Below, one piece after another: positions 2,139-39,982 of a stretch of DNA of 42,637 nt. Position 1 is the stretch's first letter. Each line of letters starts with the position of its first letter. Made by a program: the position numbers and the translations under genes. The notes under the pieces were generated by a model. The model did not search any database. It worked only from the letters and a program-made list of their open reading frames with translations, and was not told where the DNA came from. This DNA is from Chloroflexota bacterium (GTDB lineage Bacteria > Chloroflexota > Anaerolineae > Anaerolineales > UBA11858): the NCBI GenBank assembly GCA_018648225.1, contig JABGRQ010000089.1, forward strand, positions 1 to 42,637, given 5' to 3'.

Positions 2139-2159
2139 ATGGGGTAGTACGGGAGTTGA

Positions 2160-2191
2160 GCGCCCCGGTGTTTTATGCACCGGGGCGTTTT
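2160..2191 (+). terminator. Strong hairpin terminator just after the late promoters
   Basis: CGCCCCGGTG (2161-2170) pairs perfectly with CACCGGGGCG (2178-2187) around a TTTTATG loop and is followed by TTTT. It lies ~50 bases downstream of the promoters and upstream of the first late gene. It could stop cassette-array transcription or act as an antitermination checkpoint. Confidence 0.7.
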
Positions 2192-2209
2192 GCGTTAAAG
2201 GAGCAAGTG

Positions 2210-2638
2210 ATGAAGGGACGTTATTTCTTTATTTTGTTATTGGTTGTGGCATCGTTTGCGTTTTCTCCGCTGCAGGACGCGCAACCGGAAGCGCCAATTG
2301 AATGGATGTCGCTTGTCAATCAGATTTTGTCGGTTGTGGTGACGTTTGTGGTGGCGACATTGCTGCCGCGCTTGTTCCGAATTGCTGATAAATATTTGCA
2401 ACGCCTGGAAGCGCAAATTGGCGAGACCAACATGAACCGGGCTTATGTGGTTATTGAAAACGCAGTGCGCGCCGCTGAGCAGCTTGGGATTACAGAACAG
2501 ATCAAAAATAAGCGCGATTTTGCATTTGACAAAATCGAGCGGGAACTGTACCAGGCCGGGATTGAAATGGACCTGAGCGATATTTACGAAAATATCGAGA
2601 GCATGGTCAATAAACTATTTCCGAAGCGCGCTGCATAG
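2210..2638 (+). CDS. Holin-like protein, LLH-type
   Basis: This 142-aa protein begins with a hydrophobic segment (residues ~4-19), has a second (residues ~36-54) and continues with a long amphipathic helical domain. The C-terminal part, with AAEQLG, a conserved Lys-rich turn and a final IE..V pattern, resembles the LLH-type phage holin family, which makes pores in the inner membrane at lysis. Start ATG 2210 has AAAGGAG about 7 bases upstream. An upstream in-frame start at 2120 would read through the terminator hairpin and is rejected. It is first in the late operon. Confidence 0.7.
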   Translation: MKGRYFFILLLVVASFAFSPLQDAQPEAPIEWMSLVNQILSVVVTFVVATLLPRLFRIADKYLQRLEAQIGETNMNRAYVVIENAVRAAEQLGITEQIKNKRDFAFDKIERELYQAGIEMDLSDIYENIESMVNKLFPKRAA

Positions 2639-6334: not shown

Positions 6335-8472
6335 TGGCTATCAGAATTCTGGAACGCCTGGGGCGTAGCGCACAAGGTGACGTACGTAAAAATGATATGC
6401 CTTTGCAACCCAAATGGCAGCGTCATTTTCTTTCGATATTTGACAATTTTGAGTCGGTTGTTGAGGATGCCTACAAGAAAAATACCACGGCTTCGGCTTG
6501 CATGTGGGTGCTGCAATCCACATTCCCAGAGCCGGAAATGTGGGCGTGGGAGCGGGGCGATCTGAATGACTATAAACCCATCCAGGGGCACGCGTACCGC
6601 AAATTGATGCGGCAGCCCAACCCCGATATGGGGGAGGTGGAACTCTACCAATATGTGATTACCTATGCTCCACTGGGTGGCAATGTGTATTTGTGGAAGC
6701 AGCGAGATCAGGCGGAGCGCGTCAAGGCGTTGTTTCCGTTCCACGATGGTCAAATTAGACCGATACGGGGGCGCTCTACGGCGGACGGGCTGGTGGCCTA
6801 TTATGTGCTGGATTTGGGCGATAGCGAGCAATATAACCCGTGGAAGCTAGATCGTTTTGACGACATCCCGGGCGTGGCGATTCCCAAAACGGAGGTGATT
6901 CATTGGAAGTGGATGGTAGACCCGGCAAACCCTGAGCGCGGGATGGGCGCATTTGTAGCCAGTGCCGGGGATGTGAAGATTGGTAACGAGATCCGCGATT
7001 ATATTTATTCGTTTTTGAAAAATGACGCCACCCCGCCGATTGCGGTGACATCTGTTGAAGGGGAGGAAGTGACCCCCGAAAAGGCCACCCGCTGGCGCAA
7101 GATGTGGAAGGAACGCATGGGCGGCGAGAACCGGGGGTCGCCTGCATTTTTGCAGTCTGGGCAGACGATACAACAATTGGCGTGGACGCTGAAAGATATG
7201 GAATTCAGCACGCTGCAGGATGGGCCGGATACGGCGATTTGTAACGCGTTTCATGTTCATCCGGCGGTGGTGGGCACGCTGGCCGGGCTAAAAAATAGCA
7301 CGTTTACGAATATGGAAGAAGCCAATAAGTCTTTGGCGATGCAAACGCTGGTGCCACTGTGGCGTTCGTTTGCGAGCGAAGTGCAGCAAGGCATGGCGGG
7401 CGAAATTGGTTATGCCGAGGATGTCGTGATCCGTTTTGATTTATCGCAGGTACGAGCACTGCAAGAGAGCCAAACGGAAATTGAAAACCGACTGGGGCAA
7501 ATGTTTGACCGGGGCGGGATTACACGGGCAGAGTATCGCAAGGCGTTGGGCTTTGACGCCGATGATGCAGACAATGTGTACAAGGAAAATCTGGCGAGTA
7601 TTTGGGTGCCGAGGGGACAGATACGACAGAATGACCCGGAATTGATTGCAGCGGAGGAAGAGCGGCAAAACGGTGACAAGGTTGGCAGGTTGAAAGTTGA
7701 AGGTACTAAAACTGCGGAGCGGATTGGAGTGGCGCTGCGAAGGAAACGGGCGGCGCTGACAGGAAAGATGGCAACGCAGGTGGATGGGTATTTTGATGGG
7801 CTGGCGGCGCGAGTGGTAGAGCGGGCGAGCGCATTAGAGAAAAGCGGCGGTAAACAAACTGTGAGCACGAAAGCGCTGCCGGTGGTGACAGAGCTTGTGA
7901 CGGCGGCGGATGACGCTGAATTGGAAAATTTACTCAAGCGCTGGTACGTGGAAGTTGCCCGTTTGAGCTGGGATACGTGGAATGCGGCGCTGGGTGTGGA
8001 GCTGGTTTTTGATGCTACCGATCCGCTGGTGACAGGGCTGGCGAGTATGGCGGGCGGGCGGGTAGTTGAGATTACGGCGACGACGAAAGAGGCCTTGCGG
8101 GACACGCTGGCTTATGGTGCTGAAAACGGCTGGAGTATAGATCAGTTGGTGCGCGGCACGGATGAGATGCCCGGAATACGGGATGTGATTGAGCAGACGT
8201 ATAAAGGCCGGGCCGAGAATATTGCCCGCACAGAACTGGGCACGGCACAGAACACGGCTTCGGTATTGCGGTACCAGGGTGCAGGCGTGGAGCAGGTGAT
8301 GGTGCTGGATGATGGATTTGATAACAGCAACGAAAACTGCACATGGATTAATGGACAGGTGCGACCGCTGGCCTGGACGCTGGATGATCATCCGGCGGAG
8401 GGGCCAAGCGGGATTAAGAACCCGTTGCAGCATCCCAATTGTGTGCGATGTTATGCGCCGTACTACGAGTAA
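6334..8472 (+). CDS. Portal protein with C-terminal MuF-like head-morphogenesis domain
   Basis: At 712 aa this is about 250-300 residues longer than a usual HK97-type portal. Residues ~20-420 follow the portal pattern, including an N-terminal motif around ASACMWVLQ and a region (NAFHVHPAVVG, then NSTFTNMEEA) typical of the portal crown. The last ~120 residues (ENIARTELGTAQN to NPLQHPNCVRCYAPYYE) match the Mu gpF/SPP1 gp7 head-morphogenesis domain, including the C-terminal HPNCRC-like motif. The two functions, normally adjacent genes, are fused in one frame. The portal forms the vertex through which DNA enters and to which the tail attaches. Confidence 0.9.
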   Translation: MAIRILERLGRSAQGDVRKNDMPLQPKWQRHFLSIFDNFESVVEDAYKKNTTASACMWVLQSTFPEPEMWAWERGDLNDYKPIQGHAYRKLMRQPNPDMGEVELYQYVITYAPLGGNVYLWKQRDQAERVKALFPFHDGQIRPIRGRSTADGLVAYYVLDLGDSEQYNPWKLDRFDDIPGVAIPKTEVIHWKWMVDPANPERGMGAFVASAGDVKIGNEIRDYIYSFLKNDATPPIAVTSVEGEEVTPEKATRWRKMWKERMGGENRGSPAFLQSGQTIQQLAWTLKDMEFSTLQDGPDTAICNAFHVHPAVVGTLAGLKNSTFTNMEEANKSLAMQTLVPLWRSFASEVQQGMAGEIGYAEDVVIRFDLSQVRALQESQTEIENRLGQMFDRGGITRAEYRKALGFDADDADNVYKENLASIWVPRGQIRQNDPELIAAEEERQNGDKVGRLKVEGTKTAERIGVALRRKRAALTGKMATQVDGYFDGLAARVVERASALEKSGGKQTVSTKALPVVTELVTAADDAELENLLKRWYVEVARLSWDTWNAALGVELVFDATDPLVTGLASMAGGRVVEITATTKEALRDTLAYGAENGWSIDQLVRGTDEMPGIRDVIEQTYKGRAENIARTELGTAQNTASVLRYQGAGVEQVMVLDDGFDNSNENCTWINGQVRPLAWTLDDHPAEGPSGIKNPLQHPNCVRCYAPYYE

Positions 8473-8489: not shown

Positions 8490-9281
8490 GTGGAATATAA
8501 AAAACTACCCTTTTTTACGAAGTCGATCGATGAGGAAAGCCGGACTGTGACCGGGGTATTTGCGGTGCATGGCAATATGGATGATGGCCGGGATATTTCG
8601 ATAAACGGGGCATTTGGCAAGCGGTTGAATGACGGCCAGCGCAAGCGGGTGCGCTTTTTGTGGAACCATGACGGCTATTCGCCGCCGATTGCGAGCCTGA
8701 AGGCGATTCGTGAGGTGGGGCGCGAGGAACTACCGGAGAAGGTGCTGGCCTGGGCGCCGGAGGCGACCGGCGGGGCGTTGGTAACACGCCAATATTATAA
8801 AGGCGTGCCGCTGGCTGATTGGGTTTTTCAGGCGATTGTGGCAGGCGACATTACCGAGATGAGCTATGCGTATGATGTGCATGAGTATGAGCGCCAGAAG
8901 CGCGAAGGCGAAGAACGAGAAGTGCGCATTTTGAAAGACATCGAATTATATGACATCTCTGATGTGAACTGGGGCATGAACCCCGCAACGGCTGGCGTGA
9001 AGGGTTTCCCGGTGGCCGGGATGACGTTTACGCAGCATTCGGAATGGGTGGCGACCACCCTGAGCGAATATGTAAAGCGGGTGCAAGACCGCAAGGCTTT
9101 TCGAGACCAGGAAGAGCGCAAACTATCGGATGCGGTTGTAGAGCGATTGAGCCAGATGCAGGCGGAGGTCGCCGCTATTTTGAACGAATGTTCTACAAAA
9201 GCATCGGACGAAGAAGTACAAAAAGTTTTGACCCATTATTTGCGTTTTGAGGCGCAATATCAAGGAGTGAACCTAAGATGA
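8490..9281 (+). CDS. HK97-family prohead protease
   Basis: I choose GTG 8490 because CAGGAG stands about 10 bases upstream and the protein then begins MEYKKLPFF, as in family members. An upstream in-frame start at 8439 would overlap the portal gene. The S78-type prohead protease pattern is present: T-x-G-V-F-A-V-H-G early on, then FLWNHDG (catalytic His region, residues ~55-61) and EMSYAYDV (catalytic Ser region, residues ~128-135). It cleaves the scaffold part of the capsid protein during head maturation. The stop overlaps the major capsid start (ATGA). Confidence 0.9.
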   Translation: MEYKKLPFFTKSIDEESRTVTGVFAVHGNMDDGRDISINGAFGKRLNDGQRKRVRFLWNHDGYSPPIASLKAIREVGREELPEKVLAWAPEATGGALVTRQYYKGVPLADWVFQAIVAGDITEMSYAYDVHEYERQKREGEEREVRILKDIELYDISDVNWGMNPATAGVKGFPVAGMTFTQHSEWVATTLSEYVKRVQDRKAFRDQEERKLSDAVVERLSQMQAEVAAILNECSTKASDEEVQKVLTHYLRFEAQYQGVNLR

Positions 9282-15822: not shown

Positions 15823-16419
15823 ATGTCTATTCAAAACGCGTATGAAATATTGAGTGGGGTGGGGGTGCTGTATGTGGCCACCGCCGAAACCGCGAAGCCG
15901 TCGTTTGATTCTGCCCCGGGCGTGGCCTGGACGGAAATTAGCGAAACGGATGGCGGCGTGAAGGTGATTTCGAGCCAGGAGATTGAGAAGTTGTATGCTG
16001 ACCAGCACACCGGCGCACTGAAGGCGATCCGCAAGGAGGAAAGCCTGAAGATTGAGACGAATATTATCCGCAGCACGCTGGAGATTTTGGCGAAGATACT
16101 GGGCGGTGTGACGGTGACGGACACGGCAGCCGGGGCAAGCACGATTGGCTACCGCACGCTGGGTTTTCACCGGGGAAACAGTGTGACGGAGTTTGCGATG
16201 CTGTTCCGTGGCACGGCGCAATCGGCCTATGGCGCCAGCTATTCGGCCCAGTTTTATATCCCGCGGGGCTTTTTCAACGGCGAGATGGGGCTGGAGTTCA
16301 AAAAGGACGGCAAGGTGATGGTGCCGGTGCAGTTTGAAGCCCTGATGGATTTGGACGAAGCCACCAGCGAGTATAAGTTTGGGCAGTACGATATGCAGGA
16401 TGCGGCCCCGACCGGGTAA
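15823..16419 (+). CDS. Major tail protein (tail tube)
   Basis: At 198 aa and placed between tail terminator and chaperones, this is the expected tube protein. The sequence has the start SGVGVLYVA (residues ~11-19), a strand-rich core with WTEISETDGGVKV (residues ~36-48), and a long EFAMLFRGTAQSAYGASY segment near residue 130 that fits the beta-sandwich of siphophage tube proteins. GAGGAG from mini-repeat D lies just upstream of ATG 15823. A strong promoter and leader follow the gene. Confidence 0.78.
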   Translation: MSIQNAYEILSGVGVLYVATAETAKPSFDSAPGVAWTEISETDGGVKVISSQEIEKLYADQHTGALKAIRKEESLKIETNIIRSTLEILAKILGGVTVTDTAAGASTIGYRTLGFHRGNSVTEFAMLFRGTAQSAYGASYSAQFYIPRGFFNGEMGLEFKKDGKVMVPVQFEALMDLDEATSEYKFGQYDMQDAAPTG

Positions 16420-16438
16420 GGGATGATGGCGAAGATGC

Positions 16439-16467
16439 TTGCACCCGCACGGAATTTGCGCTATACT
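16439..16467 (+). promoter_or_regulatory. Promoter of leader RNA 1
   Basis: TTGCAC (16439-16444), a 17-base spacer and TATACT (16462-16467) form a good sigma70-type promoter inside the late operon. The predicted transcript would begin at about 16474, at the first base of the x motif of the leader. Confidence 0.7.
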
Positions 16468-16473
16468 GAGGGG

Positions 16474-16654
16474 CGAGACTCCCATCTCCCCAACGATGGC
16501 AGCGGCCTTGTGTTTAAGGCTGTGGTTGCGCTGTTTGCCTATCTAAACTCATATCGTGGACAAAGGTCCGCCACAGAACCGCGACGCTGCCGAGATGGGA
16601 GTCTCCAAGCAACGCTATTCTGTGGTGGATTTTTGGTTAAAGGAGACTCCCATG
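16474..16654 (+). ncRNA. Switch-like leader RNA 1 (x-x'-x'' type)
   Basis: x GAGACTCCCATCTC (16475-16488) and x' GAGATGGGAGTCTC (16592-16605) are perfect 14-bp inverted repeats, extended by GGCAGCG (16498) with CGCTGCC (16585). x'' GGAGACTCCCAT (16642-16653) is the ribosome-binding site plus first bases of the start codon and is perfectly complementary to x' over 12 bases. Thus x' can pair with x (site free) or with x'' (site blocked). CCACAGAA (16571-16578, in the loop) can also pair with TTCTGTGG (16618-16625, between x' and x''). The layout is the same as in leader RNA 2 at 35664. The ligand or trigger is unknown. Confidence 0.65.
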
Positions 16655-16939
16655 AACACCCCAGCCCAAACGCAGGTAAAAGCTATTTTCACACGGGACC
16701 AGCCGCGAGCGGTGGAACCGGAAGACGTCCGGCTGATGTCGTTACGCATCCAGCAGGTGATGAGCGACGAGCTGCAAAAGCTGAATGCGGCGGTGGCGTT
16801 GCTCGATCTGACCACGATTTGGCACGATCTATTGGCGGCGTATGCGTATATGGTTTGGCCGCATTGTTCCGCAAGCGAAAATATGCTGGCCGAGGATACT
16901 ATGCAGCGGGCCAAGGGAAATATCGAAGCGCTGACGTAA
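16652..16939 (+). CDS. Unknown protein downstream of leader RNA 1, 95 aa
   Basis: The start ATG 16652 is embedded in the x'' element, with GGAGA 5-10 bases upstream. The product is soluble and helical: residues ~25-70 are leucine/alanine-rich (RIQQVMSDELQKLNAAVALL), with an aromatic segment AAYAYMVWPHC near residue 68. I do not recognise it. It has its own promoter and RNA switch within the tail operon, so its dosage or timing seems to matter. A chaperone, moron or regulator would be possible. Confidence 0.65.
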   Translation: MNTPAQTQVKAIFTRDQPRAVEPEDVRLMSLRIQQVMSDELQKLNAAVALLDLTTIWHDLLAAYAYMVWPHCSASENMLAEDTMQRAKGNIEALT

Positions 16940-17017
16940 TAAAAGCCGGTTACACTGGAGTAAATTGGCAGGTAGTTTTAACCTGGGGCTTCTCAGGGGC
17001 CTGTTTAGATGATTTTG

Positions 17018-17071
17018 AACCCAAAGGCACGCGGGCACAAAGAAATTTGTGTTTGGGTGCCTTTGTGGGTT
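17018..17071 (+). promoter_or_regulatory. Long hairpin upstream of the tail chaperone gene
   Basis: AACCCAAAGGCAC (17018-17030) pairs with GTGCCTTTGTGGGTT (17057-17071) over 13-14 bp with one bulge. It sits in the 156-base gap between 16939 and the chaperone gene. No T-run follows, so attenuation or message processing is more likely than termination. Confidence 0.5.
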
Positions 17072-17095
17072 AACACCGCATTGGAGATTGACATA

Positions 17096-17440
17096 ATGAC
17101 GCGTGCGCTTAATTTGGATGAACTGTTTGGGCAAGATAAAGAGATCAGTATTGATTACCGCGGCAAGAATTACCGGCTGCGGCATGTGCGCGAGTTTGGG
17201 CCAGCCGAATATATGAAGTGGCAAAAACTGATGGACCGCTATGCCGCGCTGGAAGGCAAAGAAATGTTAAGCCCGGAAGAAGGCGTTGAGTTGCAAGCGC
17301 TGGTGCATGATGCGGTAGAACAAATGAACCCGCGCCTGGCTGATGCCGAAGGCGTGGGCTTTCAGCAGCATGTGGCAATCTTGATGCACTATGCTGCCAA
17401 TATTCAGGTGGATGTTGACGAAAAAAAAGCGACGGAGTAG
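17096..17440 (+). CDS. Tail assembly chaperone, shorter product (gpG-like)
   Basis: ATG 17096 starts a 114-aa acidic helical protein that lies just before the tape measure region, where siphophages keep the tail assembly chaperones. It ends with GAA AAA AAA GCG ACG GAG TAG. The run of eight A plus G (17421-17429) is a classic -1 slippery site, and the -1 frame stays open to 17739. The chaperone binds and protects the tape measure protein during tail building and is not part of the virion. Confidence 0.8.
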   Translation: MTRALNLDELFGQDKEISIDYRGKNYRLRHVREFGPAEYMKWQKLMDRYAALEGKEMLSPEEGVELQALVHDAVEQMNPRLADAEGVGFQQHVAILMHYAANIQVDVDEKKATE

Positions 17441-27035: not shown

Positions 27036-27108
27036 GCACACGTAGCTCAATTGGTAGAGCAGGCCCTTCGTAAGGGCCAGGCCGCAGGTTCGAAGCCTGC
27101 CGTGTGCT
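27036..27108 (+). tRNA. tRNA-Thr (anticodon CGT)
   Basis: A complete cloverleaf can be drawn: acceptor GCACACG/CGTGTGC, D-arm GCTC..GAGC, anticodon stem GGCCC/GGGCC with loop TTCGTAA (anticodon CGT), and T-arm GCAGG-TTCGAAG-CCTGC. The CCA end is not encoded. It reads ACG codons, which are visibly frequent in the phage structural genes, so it may support late translation. It could also be linked to the integration site of the nearby recombinase. Confidence 0.92.
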
Positions 27109-34590: not shown

Positions 34591-35540
34591 TTATGCCGGG
34601 GGAGATGGCGCGGGCTTTGCTGGAGCGGATTTTTGCTCGCCTGGCGGTTGTTTTTATGGTGGCGATGGCGGTGTTGCTGGTGTTGTATGGCGGCTGGATG
34701 TGGTTGACGGGGGAGGGGCAGACGCCATCATCTGGCATGGGTAGCCATGAGACGGCTACCCTGCGCGAGTTGCAGGTTTCGGTTACTCTATCCCCCACGG
34801 AGCCAGCGATTGTGGCTCCGGTATTGGTCGCCAGTGTTACCGCACAACCTACGGGCACCACTTATACCCCATATCCCACTTATACCCCATATCCCACATT
34901 TACGGCGTTGCCCACTTATACGCCGGTCCCCACCGAGCAGGGTCCGCTGCCTTCGCTTTCTCCACTGCCTTCGGCAACTCTGGATTATGTGGCCTTGATG
35001 CAAGCAAATTTGGATGAGATGCACAAGGATGCGTCGGCGGAGCGGGCACGGGCTGATGCGGATGCGGCGATGTGGCGCGAGGTGTGGCGTTGGGGGTGTT
35101 TGGCGGGGCTGGCGCCGGTGGCGGTTTTGTTGACGGGACTGGTGGCCTTGGCGTTGCGCAAGATGGCGCAGGGCGACGGCCCAATGGTGGAGGAGGAAGC
35201 GGAAGAAGCTGAGGAAGCGTCGGGGCCGGAGCGGGTGCGCCTGGAAGTGAAGACGAATGGGGGCAAGTCTTTGTTGTGGCACCGTTACCCGGTGGATAAG
35301 CGCGTGCTGAGGCAGTGGATACGAGTGGCGTTGAACGGCGGCAGCATTGCAATTGGCAATTGGACAGGCTCGAATAAGCCGTTTACGCGGGGCAGTTACG
35401 AGAAGTTTGTTGATTATTGGATGACGGCGGGCGTTTTGATGGATAAATACCCGGGCGTTGAGAATTCGGAGCGGGTGCTGACGGAGGGGGGCGCAACGGC
35501 ACTACAGGCGGTTTTGACACAGGATTTTGGGTATGTATAG
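34587..35540 (+). CDS. Bitopic membrane protein with Thr/Pro/Tyr stalk, 317 aa
   Basis: The order is: N-terminal membrane span (residues ~15-36), a short exposed region, a stalk of TPYPT-type repeats (residues ~91-116, PTGTTYTPYP then TYTPYPT), an acidic coiled segment (residues ~137-160), a second span (GLAPVAVLLTGLVALAL, residues ~164-180), an E-rich linker and a soluble C-terminal domain (residues ~220-317). Stalks of this composition are common in surface proteins of Chloroflexota. It could be a virion-independent surface protein or exclusion factor. The function is not known. Confidence 0.6.
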   Translation: MIMPGEMARALLERIFARLAVVFMVAMAVLLVLYGGWMWLTGEGQTPSSGMGSHETATLRELQVSVTLSPTEPAIVAPVLVASVTAQPTGTTYTPYPTYTPYPTFTALPTYTPVPTEQGPLPSLSPLPSATLDYVALMQANLDEMHKDASAERARADADAAMWREVWRWGCLAGLAPVAVLLTGLVALALRKMAQGDGPMVEEEAEEAEEASGPERVRLEVKTNGGKSLLWHRYPVDKRVLRQWIRVALNGGSIAIGNWTGSNKPFTRGSYEKFVDYWMTAGVLMDKYPGVENSERVLTEGGATALQAVLTQDFGYV

Positions 35541-35628
35541 GTATGTATGCGTGTGTATGTATGGACGGATGTGCATTTTGGGGCTGCACAGGCGGAGGGG
35601 GAGGTGGGTTGGGCGTGTTAAGATGCTC

Positions 35629-35657
35629 TTGACCGCGTGGTTGAGTTCTGCTATACT
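35629..35657 (+). promoter_or_regulatory. Promoter of leader RNA 2 (integrase operon)
   Basis: TTGACC (35629-35634), a 17-base spacer and TATACT (35652-35657). It has the same -10 and spacer as the promoter of leader RNA 1. The transcript would begin near 35664, at the first repeat of the leader. Confidence 0.72.
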
Positions 35658-35663
35658 GAATCT

Positions 35664-35850
35664 TGAACCGGTCAGTTCACTTTTACGGATGGGCTTTTTG
35701 TTGCCTGACGTACACTTACAATCAAATAACCATTGTACGAAGAGCGCCCGCTCTGAGTATCGCAAAAGGCCCATCGTAAGAACTGACCGGTTCCCGATAG
35801 GTGCTAGCGGTATTTGGAGCGGGCGCTCTTCGTTAAAGGAACCGGTCAAA
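35664..35850 (+). ncRNA. Switch-like leader RNA 2 (x-x'-x'' type) ahead of the intI operon
   Basis: x GAACCGGTCAGTTC (35665-35678) and x' GAACTGACCGGTTC (35780-35793) are perfect 14-bp inverted repeats, with ACGGATGGGCTTTT (35685) and AAAAGGCCCATCGT (35764) extending the stem. x'' GGAACCGGTCA (35838-35848) contains the ribosome-binding site and is complementary to x' over 11 bases. In the loop, ACGAAGAGCGCCCGCTC (35737-35753) is perfectly complementary over 17 bases to 35817-35833, between x' and x''. Pairing x:x' leaves the ribosome-binding site free, whereas x':x'' blocks it. The 17-bp pairing crosses the first and makes a pseudoknot or a competing fold. The same topology is found in leader RNA 1. 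Confidence 0.72.
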
Positions 35851-36009
35851 ATGAACAGACTGTATGAATTTATGGCGAAGATGGTGTTGCGTCGGTTTGG
35901 GCGCTTTGCGTCGGAGATTACGCTGGCGTGGTTGGCGCAGTATGATTATTTGATGGTGACGGAAGCCGATTTGAAATGGATGACGGCGGGGGCTGGCGAT
36001 GCCGCCTAA
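35851..36009 (+). CDS. Small unknown protein, 52 aa, first gene after leader RNA 2
   Basis: ATG 35851 follows the GGA of x''. The product is helical and amphipathic (MAKMVLRRFGRFASEITLAW), with an acidic end, and could be a small DNA-binding or membrane-surface protein. It overlaps the next gene by 11 bases. Not recognised. Confidence 0.6.
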   Translation: MNRLYEFMAKMVLRRFGRFASEITLAWLAQYDYLMVTEADLKWMTAGAGDAA

Positions 36010-36325
36010 AGGTTTCCCGCGCCCGTGGGCGTGCGATACGTGCCGCACGGCGTTTACACAAAACACGCCGACGCAGTTGTGGTGCGGTGCATGCGCGGAT
36101 GAGCGCAACCGCAAGAGCCGGGGACGCTATGAGCGGCGGCGATCTGGGCGGGTGCGCAGTGTGGAGGTTGGGCGCTCGGGTTGTACCAACTGCAAAGCGC
36201 GGGCGGTGTGCGATGTGGCGCTGTGGACGTTGTTGCCGTTGGTCTGTTCGCCGGGTGGCGAGCAGACGCGGGCGATGGTGCTGGAAAGCCCGGAGTTGGT
36301 GCGGGCGGCACAGGCGAGATGGTGA
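35999..36325 (+). CDS. Zinc-finger-like protein, 108 aa
   Basis: The N-terminal 40 residues carry CDTC (residues 12-15) and CGAC (residues 29-32), spaced as a zinc ribbon, followed by a basic RRR-rich helix, and two more Cys (CTNCKARAVC) appear near residue 62. This composition suits a nucleic-acid-binding protein. The gene overlaps the preceding gene and ends 3 bases before intI, so the three genes are almost certainly one transcript. Function is unknown. It could regulate the switch or the integrase. Confidence 0.6.
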   Translation: MPPKGFPRPWACDTCRTAFTQNTPTQLWCGACADERNRKSRGRYERRRSGRVRSVEVGRSGCTNCKARAVCDVALWTLLPLVCSPGGEQTRAMVLESPELVRAAQARW

Positions 36326-36328
36326 GCG

Positions 36329-37315
36329 ATGACGATTGAAGAACGCATCCGAAACGAAATCCGCACGCGGCATTACTCGCTGAAGACCGAGAAGGCTTAT
36401 GTGCGTTGGTATAAGCGCTTTGTGCGCCATCATCAACTGAGGCATCCCGAGCAGATGGGCAGGCAAGAAATTGGCGAGTTTTTGACGCATCTGGCGGTGG
36501 ATGGGCGCGTGGCGGCGAGTACGCAAAATCAGGCTCTGGCGGCGTTGTTGTTTTTGTACCGCCAGGTGCTGGGGATGGAGATTGGTTATGTGGAGGGGTT
36601 TGCCTATGCCAAACGCGGGAAGCGGCTGCCGGTGGTGCTGAATAAGGCCGATACGGTGGCGGTGCTGGAAAATGTAGCAGGTTCGCCGCAGGATTTGGTG
36701 GCGCATTTGCTGTATGGCTGCGGGATGCGCCTGAGCGAAGCGCTAAGGCTGCGAATCAAGGATGTGGATTTTGGGCGCGGGGTGGTGATTGTGCATGATG
36801 GCAAGGGTCAGAAAGACCGCTCGACGGTGCTACCGCGCGGCCTGTGCGAGTGGATGACTGATCAGATGGTGATTGCACGCAAGTTTCACGAGATTGACCG
36901 GCAGCGAAAGCGTCCCGGGGTGCAGGTTCCGTATGCGTTGGAGCGCAAGAAGCCCACGATTGGCGAGGATTGGGGCTGGTTTTGGGTGTTTCCGGCAGAG
37001 AATGAGTCTGTGGACCCGGTGAGCGGCGTTCAGCGGCGGCACCATATCCATGAGAGCACGGTGCAGAAGGCGGTACGCAGCGCATCCAGGGTGGCTGGTG
37101 TGGTGCAGCGGGTGACTCCGCATGTGTTTCGGCATTGTTTTGCGACGCATTTGCTGGAGGACGGGTATGACATCCGCACGGTGCAGGAGTTGCTGGGGCA
37201 TAAGGATGTGAAGACGACGATGGTTTACACGCATGTGATGCGCCCCGGGGGTGTGGCGGGGGTTGTGAGTCCGTTGGATAATGTCCGGGAGAAGGGTGTT
37301 ATCCGCGGGGAGTAG
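36329..37315 (+). CDS. intI: Integron integrase (IntI), tyrosine recombinase
   Basis: The 328-aa protein matches the integron-integrase subfamily almost end to end: RTRHYSLKTEKAYVRWYKRF, AASTQNQALAALLFLYRQVL and LLYGCGMRLSEALRLRIKDVDF are family hallmarks. The IntI-specific extra segment that reads folded attC DNA is present (residues ~205-227, GEDWGWFWVFP). Catalytic residues: Arg134, Lys159/162, His265-x-x-Arg268, His291 and Tyr300. It cuts attC and attI cores to insert or excise cassettes. It is on the same strand as the cassettes and only 3 bases after the preceding phage gene. Most known intI genes are divergent from their cassettes. Its composition matches the adjacent phage genes. Confidence 0.95.
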   Translation: MTIEERIRNEIRTRHYSLKTEKAYVRWYKRFVRHHQLRHPEQMGRQEIGEFLTHLAVDGRVAASTQNQALAALLFLYRQVLGMEIGYVEGFAYAKRGKRLPVVLNKADTVAVLENVAGSPQDLVAHLLYGCGMRLSEALRLRIKDVDFGRGVVIVHDGKGQKDRSTVLPRGLCEWMTDQMVIARKFHEIDRQRKRPGVQVPYALERKKPTIGEDWGWFWVFPAENESVDPVSGVQRRHHIHESTVQKAVRSASRVAGVVQRVTPHVFRHCFATHLLEDGYDIRTVQELLGHKDVKTTMVYTHVMRPGGVAGVVSPLDNVREKGVIRGE

Positions 37316-37325
37316 GAGAATCGGA

Positions 37326-37332
37326 GTTAGGT
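37326..37332 (+). other. attI-like core site after intI
   Basis: GTTAGGT at 37326-37332 lies 10 bases after the intI stop and fits the core consensus GTTRRRY. It marks the left boundary of the right array. New cassettes would enter between G and TT. Direct-repeat sites flanking it, as in some attI, are not obvious. Confidence 0.7.
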
Positions 37333-38245
37333 GCTTATTTTGAAACACATCATTAGCTTTTCAACCGGCTTATCATCTGCGCTCACGGTTGAGCGCGTTA
37401 TCAATCGCTATGGAAAATCGGCGGTTGAAATCGTATTCATGGATACAAAAATCGAAGACGGAGACAATTACCGCTTCATGGATGATTGCCGCCGCCGTTG
37501 GAATATGCCAATAACAACCCTAGCAGAAGGTCGCACGCCGTATCAGGTTTTTGCGGATCAGTCAATCATAGCAAATCAAAAAATTGCACCTTGCACGTTC
37601 CGATTGAAAATTGAACCGTTTGTTGCATACCTGGAAACAATCAGCGATCCGGTAACAATTCACATTGGCTATGATTTCTCAGAAATTCACCGCTGCGAAG
37701 CTACTACAAAAAACTACAATGCCCGCGGTTGGGATGTTGACTATCCATTACTCTGGAAGCCCATCGAATACCGTAAATATGCGGATGTTGTACGCTACGA
37801 TTGGTGCATTGAGCCACCTAGAATGTACGCGCTAGGCTACACTCACGCTAATTGTGGTGGCGTCTGCGTCAAGCAGGGGCAGGGCGATTGGTTGCGCACT
37901 CTCATAAATTATCCTGAACGATACGCAGAAATTGAAAACTGGGAAACCGCAATGAGAGATCATCCAGTGCGCAAAAATTACGCCATTGTTAGGGATCAGT
38001 CGGGCGGCAATGTATCGCCGCTGCCATTGACGGAACTGCGAGAGCGATACGAAGCCAGTCTGGGCATTGATTTATGCGAACTCGATACTGAATCTGCGTG
38101 TGTTTCGTGCGGGGTTGGTGATTTATCGCATCCGCACCTAACCAAAATTGCATTAGACCGGGCTAGTCGCCCGGATAGGCCGCGGCGCTTTGCGGCCAGT
38201 CAATTCAATATGCCGGGTATTTTTGCAAACCCGCCCGGCAAATGA
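37331..38245 (+). CDS. PAPS-reductase/PP-loop-like cassette protein, 304 aa
   Basis: The N-terminus (HIISFSTGLSSALTV, residues ~6-20) is the PP-loop (SFSTGxxS) of the PAPS-reductase/DndC-like superfamily. Later landmarks are FMDTKIEDGDNY, PCTFRLKIEP and CGGVCVKQG plus CVSCG, Cys pairs that may bind a metal cluster. Family members reduce adenylylated sulfate or activate thio-groups for DNA or tRNA modification. The substrate here is unknown. The GTG start (37331) overlaps the attI core, and TTG 37340 is an alternative. The last ~36 residues are encoded inside the attC site. Confidence 0.72.
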   Translation: MLILKHIISFSTGLSSALTVERVINRYGKSAVEIVFMDTKIEDGDNYRFMDDCRRRWNMPITTLAEGRTPYQVFADQSIIANQKIAPCTFRLKIEPFVAYLETISDPVTIHIGYDFSEIHRCEATTKNYNARGWDVDYPLLWKPIEYRKYADVVRYDWCIEPPRMYALGYTHANCGGVCVKQGQGDWLRTLINYPERYAEIENWETAMRDHPVRKNYAIVRDQSGGNVSPLPLTELRERYEASLGIDLCELDTESACVSCGVGDLSHPHLTKIALDRASRPDRPRRFAASQFNMPGIFANPPGK

Positions 38246-38259
38246 ATAAACCGTTAGGT
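38136..38259 (+). other. attC site (right array, cassette 1)
   Basis: R'' ACCTAAC (38136-38142) and R' GTTAGGT (38253-38259) are perfectly complementary and 124 bp apart. ATTAGaCCGGGC pairs with GCCCGGCAAAT, with an extrahelical A, and additional GC hairpins (CCGGGC/GCCCGG) form the variable end. Confidence 0.88.
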
Positions 38260-38396
38260 TGCTACCTGGGTGGCTGTAACCGCAAGGCCAGATGCCCGGC
38301 CCCGTTGGTAGGCGAGAAACGCAAAGCCGTGACACACTCGCTCACCCAGACAAACGAATGAGAGATTGTCTTGAAAACAGACTGGTTAATGGTTTT

Positions 38397-38425
38397 TGTA
38401 AATCTTGCGCACGAGTGGCATAATA
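38397..38425 (+). promoter_or_regulatory. Possible cassette-borne promoter
   Basis: TTGTAA, a 17-base spacer and CATAAT lie upstream of the gene at 38503, inside a 243-base stretch (38260-38502) that holds no convincing gene. It might let this cassette be expressed from any array position. The match to consensus is fair. Confidence 0.35.
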
Positions 38426-38502
38426 AAATGCACTATTTCCCGTGGTCATTTTGCGCGGTAAATGATTGTGTTTTAGCGAGAAATATAGAAGAAAGGTACG
38501 AC

Positions 38503-38739
38503 ATGAATATTTGCTTATGCGGTACTCAGGCTGGCTATCCACATGATAAGCTCTGTCCATATCCGTTGTATCGTGGCTCGGAGGAACAAGAGCAGCGATG
38601 GTTACACAAATGGAAAGATAAACGCAACCTAACCAGCGGTAGCACAGCGACCAGCCTGTCGGCTGGGGCAAACGTGGCCGCAAAAAGCAAATCAACCGGG
38701 GCAAATGATGTCTCGGAAAATAAATCGGCTGGCGCGTGA
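38503..38739 (+). CDS. Small Cys-containing cassette protein, 78 aa
   Basis: I choose ATG 38503 because GAAAGG stands about 8 bases upstream. An in-frame upstream start at 38371 would extend a poor segment. The core (MNICLCGTQAGYPHDKLCPY) has three Cys and could bind metal. The product continues through the attC site, whose bases encode a repetitive SAGA/STGA-like tail (residues ~43-78) unlikely to be functional. Family unknown. Confidence 0.6.
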   Translation: MNICLCGTQAGYPHDKLCPYPLYRGSEEQEQRWLHKWKDKRNLTSGSTATSLSAGANVAAKSKSTGANDVSENKSAGA

Positions 38740-38756
38740 ACCGCGGGCCGTTAGCA
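38627..38756 (+). other. attC site (right array, cassette 2)
   Basis: R'' ACCTAAC (38627-38633) and R' GTTAGCA (38750-38756) enclose 130 bp. CACaGCGaCCAGCC pairs with GGCTGGCGCGTG over 12 bp with two extrahelical A. The cassette's coding frame runs straight through it. Confidence 0.85.
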
Positions 38757-38776
38757 AGCCTGAAAGGAAGTCTCTA

Positions 38777-39058
38777 ATGCACGAAGATGATGAAAACGGA
38801 ACCTGCACACATTGCCATAATGAATTTCAGTTTGCGCTTATGTGGCTGGCTTTTCACGAAGGCAATGATTATTTATTGTGCAATTCGTGTTATCACGCTC
38901 TCGGAAAACCATTCAGCGCATCTGATTATGTAGCTCTCACGGCTCTGCCAACAAAAATTACACCCGACTTGGCTACGTCTCGCGAAAAAATAGGAGCTTG
39001 CCCTGGCTGCTACCTGCCTGAGCAATGCACCACCTGCTATCCCCGCCGAAGCCCCTGA
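38777..39058 (+). CDS. Multi-CxxC cassette protein, 93 aa
   Basis: ATG 38777 has GAAAGGAAG upstream. Three Cys pairs are visible: CTHC (residues 10-13), CNSC (residues ~34-37), and a C-terminal CPGC and CTTC encoded within the attC site. The first two suggest a zinc ribbon similar to HNH- or RNA-polymerase-related ribbons. The exact family is not recognised. An upstream in-frame start (38705) would lie inside the preceding attC site. Confidence 0.65.
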   Translation: MHEDDENGTCTHCHNEFQFALMWLAFHEGNDYLLCNSCYHALGKPFSASDYVALTALPTKITPDLATSREKIGACPGCYLPEQCTTCYPRRSP

Positions 39059-39072
39059 ATAAAACGTTAGAA
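38946..39072 (+). other. attC site (right array, cassette 3)
   Basis: A GCCAAC box (38947-38952) and R' GTTAGAA (39066-39072) enclose 127 bp. The inner motif CCCGACTTGGCTACG resembles that of the left-array site at 814, although pairing with CGCCGAAGCCCC is weaker than in other sites. Confidence 0.7.
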
Positions 39073-39079
39073 GGCTGAA

Positions 39080-39982
39080 ATGATGTTACCAGTAAACGAA
39101 GTAATCGCAGGAAATTGCGCCGAAGTCATGGCTGGATGGCCCGATGATTGTATTGATCTCACTGTCACCAGCCCACCGTATGACAATCTTCGAGACTACG
39201 AAGGTTATACCTTCGACTTTGAATCTATCGCTACGCAGCTATGGCGCATCACGAAACCCGGCGGGGTGGTTGTGTGGGTTGTCGGTGATGCGGTCAAGGA
39301 TGGATCAGAAACCTGTACCAGTTTTCGCCAAGCAATCCATTTTGTCGAGTTGGGTTTTTCTTTGCACGATACTATGCTTTATTTTGCGGAGAAACCATTA
39401 TCTAACGACAATCGCTATCAGCAATGCTTTGAATATATGTATGTGTTCTCAAAAGGTTCTCCGGCTGTGTTCAACCCAATAGTAGACAAGGCTAACAAAT
39501 GGGCTGGTAGCAAGAATTTCGGTAAACGTAGTCAACGCAACAAATCCGGTGAGCTTATTTATGGAAAGCAAACGGAAGTCCCAAGATTTTCCCGCCGTCT
39601 CAACCTATGGAAATATAAAACCGGAAAAGGATACACCACAAAGGATGATTTTGCATTTGAGCATCCCGCAATGTACCCCGAAGCCCTAGCCCGTGATCAT
39701 ATTCTATCGTGGTCCAACCCCGGCGACATTGTACTCGATCCCATGTGCGGCTCAGGTACTACGCTCAAGATGGCGAAGCAAACCGGGCGGCGGTTTATCG
39801 GTATTGACATCAGTGAGAACTACTGTGCAATCGCCAGGAAGCGCGTCGAAGGCGCTCAACCCCCGCTTTTTGTAGATACCGTCACGCCTTCTAACAAAAC
39901 TTCCACGACGACCGGGCTATCGCCCGAGGGTAAGCAGGCGGAATTATTTACAACGGCATCAGGCCAAGATGCGTCAGGGTGA
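39080..39982 (+). CDS. DNA methyltransferase (N4-C or N6-A type), cassette-borne
   Basis: Residues 30-35 (TSPPYD) are the catalytic motif IV, and residues ~217-227 (LDPMCGSGTT) are the S-adenosylmethionine motif I followed by GRRFIGIDIS. The order IV then I is the beta-class arrangement typical of many phage and restriction-associated methyltransferases. It would modify adenine or cytosine amino groups, protecting phage DNA from host restriction; no cognate nuclease is in the cassette. Start ATG 39080 (39083 also possible). The last ~30 residues fall in the attC site. Length 300 aa is normal. Confidence 0.88.
   Translation: MMLPVNEVIAGNCAEVMAGWPDDCIDLTVTSPPYDNLRDYEGYTFDFESIATQLWRITKPGGVVVWVVGDAVKDGSETCTSFRQAIHFVELGFSLHDTMLYFAEKPLSNDNRYQQCFEYMYVFSKGSPAVFNPIVDKANKWAGSKNFGKRSQRNKSGELIYGKQTEVPRFSRRLNLWKYKTGKGYTTKDDFAFEHPAMYPEALARDHILSWSNPGDIVLDPMCGSGTTLKMAKQTGRRFIGIDISENYCAIARKRVEGAQPPLFVDTVTPSNKTSTTTGLSPEGKQAELFTTASGQDASG

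Follow-up and report, generated by a model that had tools for sequence, protein, structure and literature searches.

We identified two mRNA leaders of a common design in the window, the whole 42,637-nt stretch of DNA analyzed here, which makes up one entire contig (42.6 kb) from a draft genome of 4.0 Mb and carries genes for terminase, capsid, tail proteins, primase and integrase. In each leader a promoter is followed by a segment x at the predicted transcript start, a complementary segment x' in the loop of a long hairpin, and a segment x'' that also pairs with x' and lies on the ribosome-binding site of a small gene. The two leaders, A and B, are very probably functional RNAs, and each is probably an antisense-RNA control region of its first gene, of the type formed by c4 in phage P1 and CI in phage P4. 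They are an unrecognized variant of the P1/P4 antisense leaders, which this phage carries in two versions that are addressed independently, and do not constitute a new kind of RNA.

Organization of the two leaders

An initial annotation of this DNA described a promoter, x, x', a loop-to-downstream pairing and x'' recurring in the same order at 16439–16654 (leader B) and 35629–35853 (leader A). Both the coordinates and the order proved correct, the order in A being identical to that in B. The elements of leader B are as follows.

16432–16467, + strand: predicted promoter region with the AAGATGCT box, –35 element TTGCAC (16439–16444), N17 spacer and –10 element TATACT (16462–16467)
16475–16488, + strand: x, GAGACTCCCATCTC, at the predicted +1, 7 nt past TATACT
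16561–16578, + strand: L, 5' arm of the antisense hairpin, 18 bp with L' (16618–16635)
16592–16606, + strand: x', exact complement of x and antisense to the ribosome-binding site, at the tip of the hairpin formed by L and L'
16618–16635, + strand: L', 3' arm of the antisense hairpin, pairing with L
16642–16654, + strand: x'', in which GGAGACTCCCAT recurs (16642–16653), from the last GGA of the Shine-Dalgarno sequence to the ATG
16652–16939, + strand: 95-aa gene under leader B, corresponding in place to P4 kil and P1 icd

The corresponding elements of leader A are:

35620–35657, + strand: predicted promoter region with the AAGATGCT box, –35 element TTGACC (35629–35634), N17 spacer and –10 element TATACT (35652–35657)
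35665–35678, + strand: x, at the predicted +1, 7 nt past TATACT
35737–35763, + strand: L, 27 bp with L' (35807–35833)
35780–35794, + strand: x', pairing with x and x''
35807–35833, + strand: L', 27 bp with L
35838–35848, + strand: x'', beginning at the Shine-Dalgarno GGA and followed by the ATG at 35851
35851–36009, + strand: 52-aa gene, the first gene under leader A, followed by 35999–36325 and the integrase gene (36329–37315)

The Shine-Dalgarno sequence of leader B is AAAGGAG, from which x'' extends into the ATG at 16652. The distance from the predicted start to the ATG is 177 nt in B and 186 nt in A, in agreement with the roughly 180 bases originally given for both. Each x contains six bases flanked by a 4-nt inverted repeat (GAGA-CTCCCA-TCTC in B, GAAC-CGGTCA-GTTC in A) and is predicted to form a 4-bp stem with a 6-nt loop. 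The calculated duplex energies in leader B are –32.5 kcal/mol for x:x', –24.8 for x'':x' and –38.1 for L:L' with inner pairs counted; the values for leader A are –44.1, –21.9 and –53.1 kcal/mol, and its x:x' pairing can be extended to about 35698.

Leader B had been described as an unrelated-sequence copy whose x differs completely from that of leader A, and this wording is too strong. Seven of the 14 x positions are identical, and the short boxes AAGATGCT, GCTATACTGA, GTTAAAGGA and ATGAACA, shared by the promoter flanks and ribosome-binding sites, occur at matching places, with nearly equal spacing between AAGATGCT and GCTATACTGA. In the host assembly the promoter-box pattern is found at A and B only. 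The seven x positions that differ have changed jointly with their partners in x', and the pairings are kept despite the altered sequence. This covariation is limited because the copies number just two. Because x agrees in part and short boxes are common to both, A and B look like diverged paralogues, and to judge by their sequences they are best read as paralogous leaders with rewritten pairing specificity. Elsewhere in the window (2157–2215), a terminator-like GC hairpin with a T run is directly followed by GTTAAAGGAG, the same Shine-Dalgarno box as in A and B, and an ATG.

Occurrence by chance and searches for further copies

Triple complementarity at similar rates in shuffled sequence had been named as the finding that would refute a functional RNA class. 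We shuffled the whole window 1200 times, keeping its dinucleotide composition, and searched both strands of each shuffled version. Exact x-x'-x'' triples of 8 nt occurred 1669 times, those of 9 nt 119 times and those of 10 nt eight times, and none of the shuffled windows contained a triple of 11 nt or longer on either strand. The window itself has no exact triple of at least 9 nt besides A and B. We also applied a descriptor that requires, besides the triple, a start codon and Shine-Dalgarno sequence at x'', and that gives a score to the stem enclosing x'. Its maximum in the shuffles was 19.5, compared with 28 for leader B and 35 for leader A. Because the shuffles never reach these scores, an origin at chance rates is not seen and the claim of a functional RNA stands. 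Codon scores indicate that both leaders are non-coding in every frame, the score of leader B being negative in each. The 95-aa ORF scores 0.336 and the 52-aa ORF 0.58 bits per codon (reference phage genes, 0.29–0.40), which indicates that both are coding. A functional RNA architecture is supported by the excess over chance, the kept pairings, and a non-coding leader preceding a coding ORF.

The same descriptor script that finds A and B recovers the CI-kil leader of P4 and the c4-icd leader of P1; relatives did not yield a third independent copy. In a scan of 2.8 Mb, all matches scoring at least 22 other than A, B, P4 and P1 lie inside coding sequence, and three of these (L256, L257 and L254) were rejected as further members on that ground. 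The host assembly, 396 genomes from its class and a set of viral contigs were searched for patterns running from promoter to Shine-Dalgarno sequence; of the loci retrieved, A and B alone satisfy the triple test. The promoter-box pattern yielded 26 loci in 257 Gb of genomes, none with the architecture. Relatives found through their tail-tube, capsid and integrase proteins have no leader like A or B in the DNA examined. In the viral contig L131, which encodes a related integrase, the 12-nt sequence TGAACAAGTGAA occurs within an intergenic region (238–480) twice as a direct and once as an inverted repeat; these repeats have no promoter boxes and may be an iteron-like array. Rfam models at gathering and permissive thresholds detected only tRNA and chance matches in the window. 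The phage carries a tRNA gene at 27036–27108.

Folding, proposed mechanism and alternatives

When progressively longer prefixes of each leader are folded, the first strong helix is x:x' (nascent RNA at –59 and –61 kcal/mol in the two leaders). Once L' is complete, the best fold switches: L and L' form the stem, x' occupies its tip and x is released as a 5'-terminal hairpin. The base of the stem is then separated from x'' by 4 nt in A and 6 nt in B. The x':x'' pairing (–22 kcal/mol in A, –25 in B) cannot compete within the molecule with L:L' (–53 and –38), and since by inferred geometry a linker of 4–6 nt is unable to span an 18- to 27-bp stem to x', action between molecules is favored. In the model that these folds suggest, repression through x'' is most likely intermolecular, as it is for P1 and P4.

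The analysis shows the anatomy of the leaders, their excess over chance, the folding energies, the coding state of the ORFs and the match in layout to P1 and P4; that transcription starts at x, that a processed hairpin represses in trans and that it has any role in immunity are inferences. RNA synthesis would start at x, and the x:x' pair would be the first to form in the emerging RNA. When L' has been made, the stronger L:L' stem would replace this pair, x would refold as its own small hairpin, and x' would be displayed at the tip of the long one. The L-x'-L' hairpin, probably freed by processing, would be the antisense RNA. By pairing through x' with x'' in other molecules of its own mRNA, it would block the first gene's ribosome-binding site, in the way that C4 RNA blocks icd and CI acts at kil. 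The x segment at the 5' end could be a decoy or a second target. In a lysogen, the small gene and its operon would thus be kept silent.

It is possible, but unlikely, that the leaders are switches acting only in cis, in which x is an anti-antisense segment that shields the ribosome-binding site from x' until a ribosome, protein or metabolite signal moves x' to x'' and turns translation off. The three segments do form a classic set of three mutually exclusive pairings, and x, at the predicted 5' end, would fold first. However, L:L' outcompetes x':x'' in both leaders and so holds x' away from the x'' of its own molecule, and a cis-only switch leaves the retention of L:L' in both copies unexplained. 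Rfam also detected no riboswitch. A ligand-binding riboswitch has no support, and binding of an RNA in trans is the more likely of the two.

In type I toxin-antitoxin or hok/AapA-like mRNAs, metastable pairings hold back translation of a small toxin until the RNA is processed, and the leaders recall these in their small first ORFs (95 and 52 aa), 5'-terminal hairpin and staged refolding. We consider this highly improbable: judged by eye, neither product looks short and hydrophobic, the antisense segment is on the same transcript and not divergent, and the ORF of leader A directly precedes further genes and the integrase. Slightly less credible again are elements acting at the DNA level, such as operator half-sites or recombination inverted repeats with only incidental RNA pairing. 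Leader A is just upstream of a tyrosine recombinase gene, but in both copies x'' is on the Shine-Dalgarno sequence and start codon and x is at the predicted +1, neither of which DNA sites need, and there are no notable further x-like sites within the window. Least probable of all is chance, or a merely structural mRNA leader without regulation by x'. Phage leaders commonly hold inverted repeats, and L:L' by itself could protect the mRNA; however, the shuffled windows never come near either copy, and the same order is found twice in one genome.

Relationship to the P1, P4 and IsrK leaders

The antisense reading rests in part on the likeness to P1 and P4. In the immI region of P1 (c4-icd-ant; RF01695), as in A and B, a promoter, a first target, a hairpin RNA, a second target at the ribosome-binding site and a small ORF are on one transcript. 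The descriptor finds b1, C4, b2 and then icd (73 aa). The public P1 record annotates a1b1, C4 RNA and a2b2 in that order, with a1b1 and a2b2 as C4 target sites and a2b2 assigned to 'repression of icd ant translation'. The P1 promoter is about 240 nt from the ATG, a size similar to that of A and B. The P1 pairing is split into a' (7 nt) and b' (8 nt), whereas A and B have a single block of 11–12 nt with x'' and at least 14 nt with x. P1 icd and ant have no homologues with A or B.

The P4 leader also resembles A and B in having seqA upstream, seqB in a stable hairpin and seqC overlapping the Shine-Dalgarno sequence of a small ORF. The descriptor places seqA at 8667, near the P_LE start, its complement seqB in a stem-loop at 8463–8442, and the seqC repeat over the Shine-Dalgarno sequence of a 65-aa ORF at 8415–8377 (seqC 8384). 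Processing of the leader releases CI RNA, which then acts as an antisense RNA by pairing with the upstream seqA and the downstream seqC (PMC4825925). However, P4 works through transcription termination, its leader is about 325 nt, seqA is about 25 nt past the predicted start whereas x is at the predicted +1, and P4 also uses two pairing segments, a' and b', where x' is one block. IsrK of the Gifsy-1 prophage is a phage leader RNA that also regulates its own operon (PMC4825925). It activates by opening a ribosome-binding site (RF01394), and A and B do not match its model.

The C4 family of Rfam was described from Proteobacteria and phages (PMC2864571). In control searches P4 CI matched C4 (RF01695) at 74.9 bits, and the P4 5' leader matched isrK at 60.8 bits, above the cut-off, and c4-a1b1 at 44.1 bits, just under the cut-off of 46.7. 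The C4 model has no match to A or B at the gathering score or at E values up to 5, nor any in the whole assembly, and isrK (RF01394) and c4-a1b1 (RF03163) have none at the leaders at E values up to 5. Leaders A and B share with C4 the order of promoter, first target, antisense hairpin, second target over the ribosome-binding site and small ORF, as well as a stable closed stem around the antisense segment (18 bp in B, 27 bp in A). They do not have the two-segment a'/b' antisense, x' being contiguous in both copies, and their 95- and 52-aa products have no convincing kil, icd or ant homologues. A and B probably function like C4 and CI but cannot be filed as C4 members. Of the functional RNA class originally proposed, function is upheld by the excess over chance and the kept pairings; the class is not new, the arrangement being that of P1 c4-icd and P4 CI-kil.

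The 16S fragment of the genome is 72–80% identical to E. coli 16S, so the host, if the binning is right, is no close relative of the known C4 hosts. It is possible, though less likely than not, that the leaders represent a sequence-independent and perhaps convergent C4/CI-type antisense immunity outside Proteobacteria, with two mutually blind versions in one phage, one of them a portable small-gene cassette inserted among the genes of the late tail operon. Such a pair of orthogonal copies would exemplify how a new RNA specificity is gained through compensated change. RNA immunity of the P1/P4 type has been catalogued with sequence models, and a descriptor based on pairing alone detects the same plan in unrelated sequence. 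This suggests that such control may be commoner than sequence searches reveal, and the descriptor is a direct route to further such RNAs.

First genes and genomic neighborhood

Homologue searches gave no convincing match for the 95-aa product (one doubtful match, 28% over 69 residues) and none for the 52-aa product, and the two show no similarity to each other. Leader B is located between the tail-tube gene (15823–16419) and the next tail gene, which encodes the chaperone and probably has its true start at 17097. In a relative with 42% tail-tube identity the two genes are direct neighbors with 26 nt between them. The closest tail-tube relative (L001, 6575–6725) has another, unrelated hairpin-rich stretch of about 150 nt between them. 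Because relatives have the two tail genes adjacent or otherwise separated, leader B and the 95-aa gene are an insertion. A strong inverted repeat, AACCCAAAGGCAC ... GTGCCTTTGTGGGTT, is found at 17012–17070 in the gap between the 95-aa and chaperone genes and is possibly a terminator or a further leader element.

In P4 a longer ORF, eta, reads through the leader. Here a frame of 216 codons (16423–17073) opens 3 nt past the tail-tube stop and crosses leader B and the 95-aa gene out of frame, and an in-phase open frame at 35527–36009 crosses leader A. We rejected these as eta-like frames: one frame is open per leader, but shuffles yield such frames in 5–15% of cases.

Leader A heads an operon in which the 52-aa gene comes first, 35999–36325 follows and the gene for the tyrosine recombinase, an integrase (36329–37315), is last. 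Pfam identifies only Phage_integrase and Phage_int_SAM_4 in this protein, and its N-terminal and insert motifs presumably resemble those of integron-type integrases. Integron attC sites were considered on account of this integrase and rejected, since the outer boxes differ from the attC consensus. Downstream of the integrase gene, the region 37331–39982 encodes a DNA methylase (N6_N4_Mtase) and has a weak match of the PAPS reductase type.
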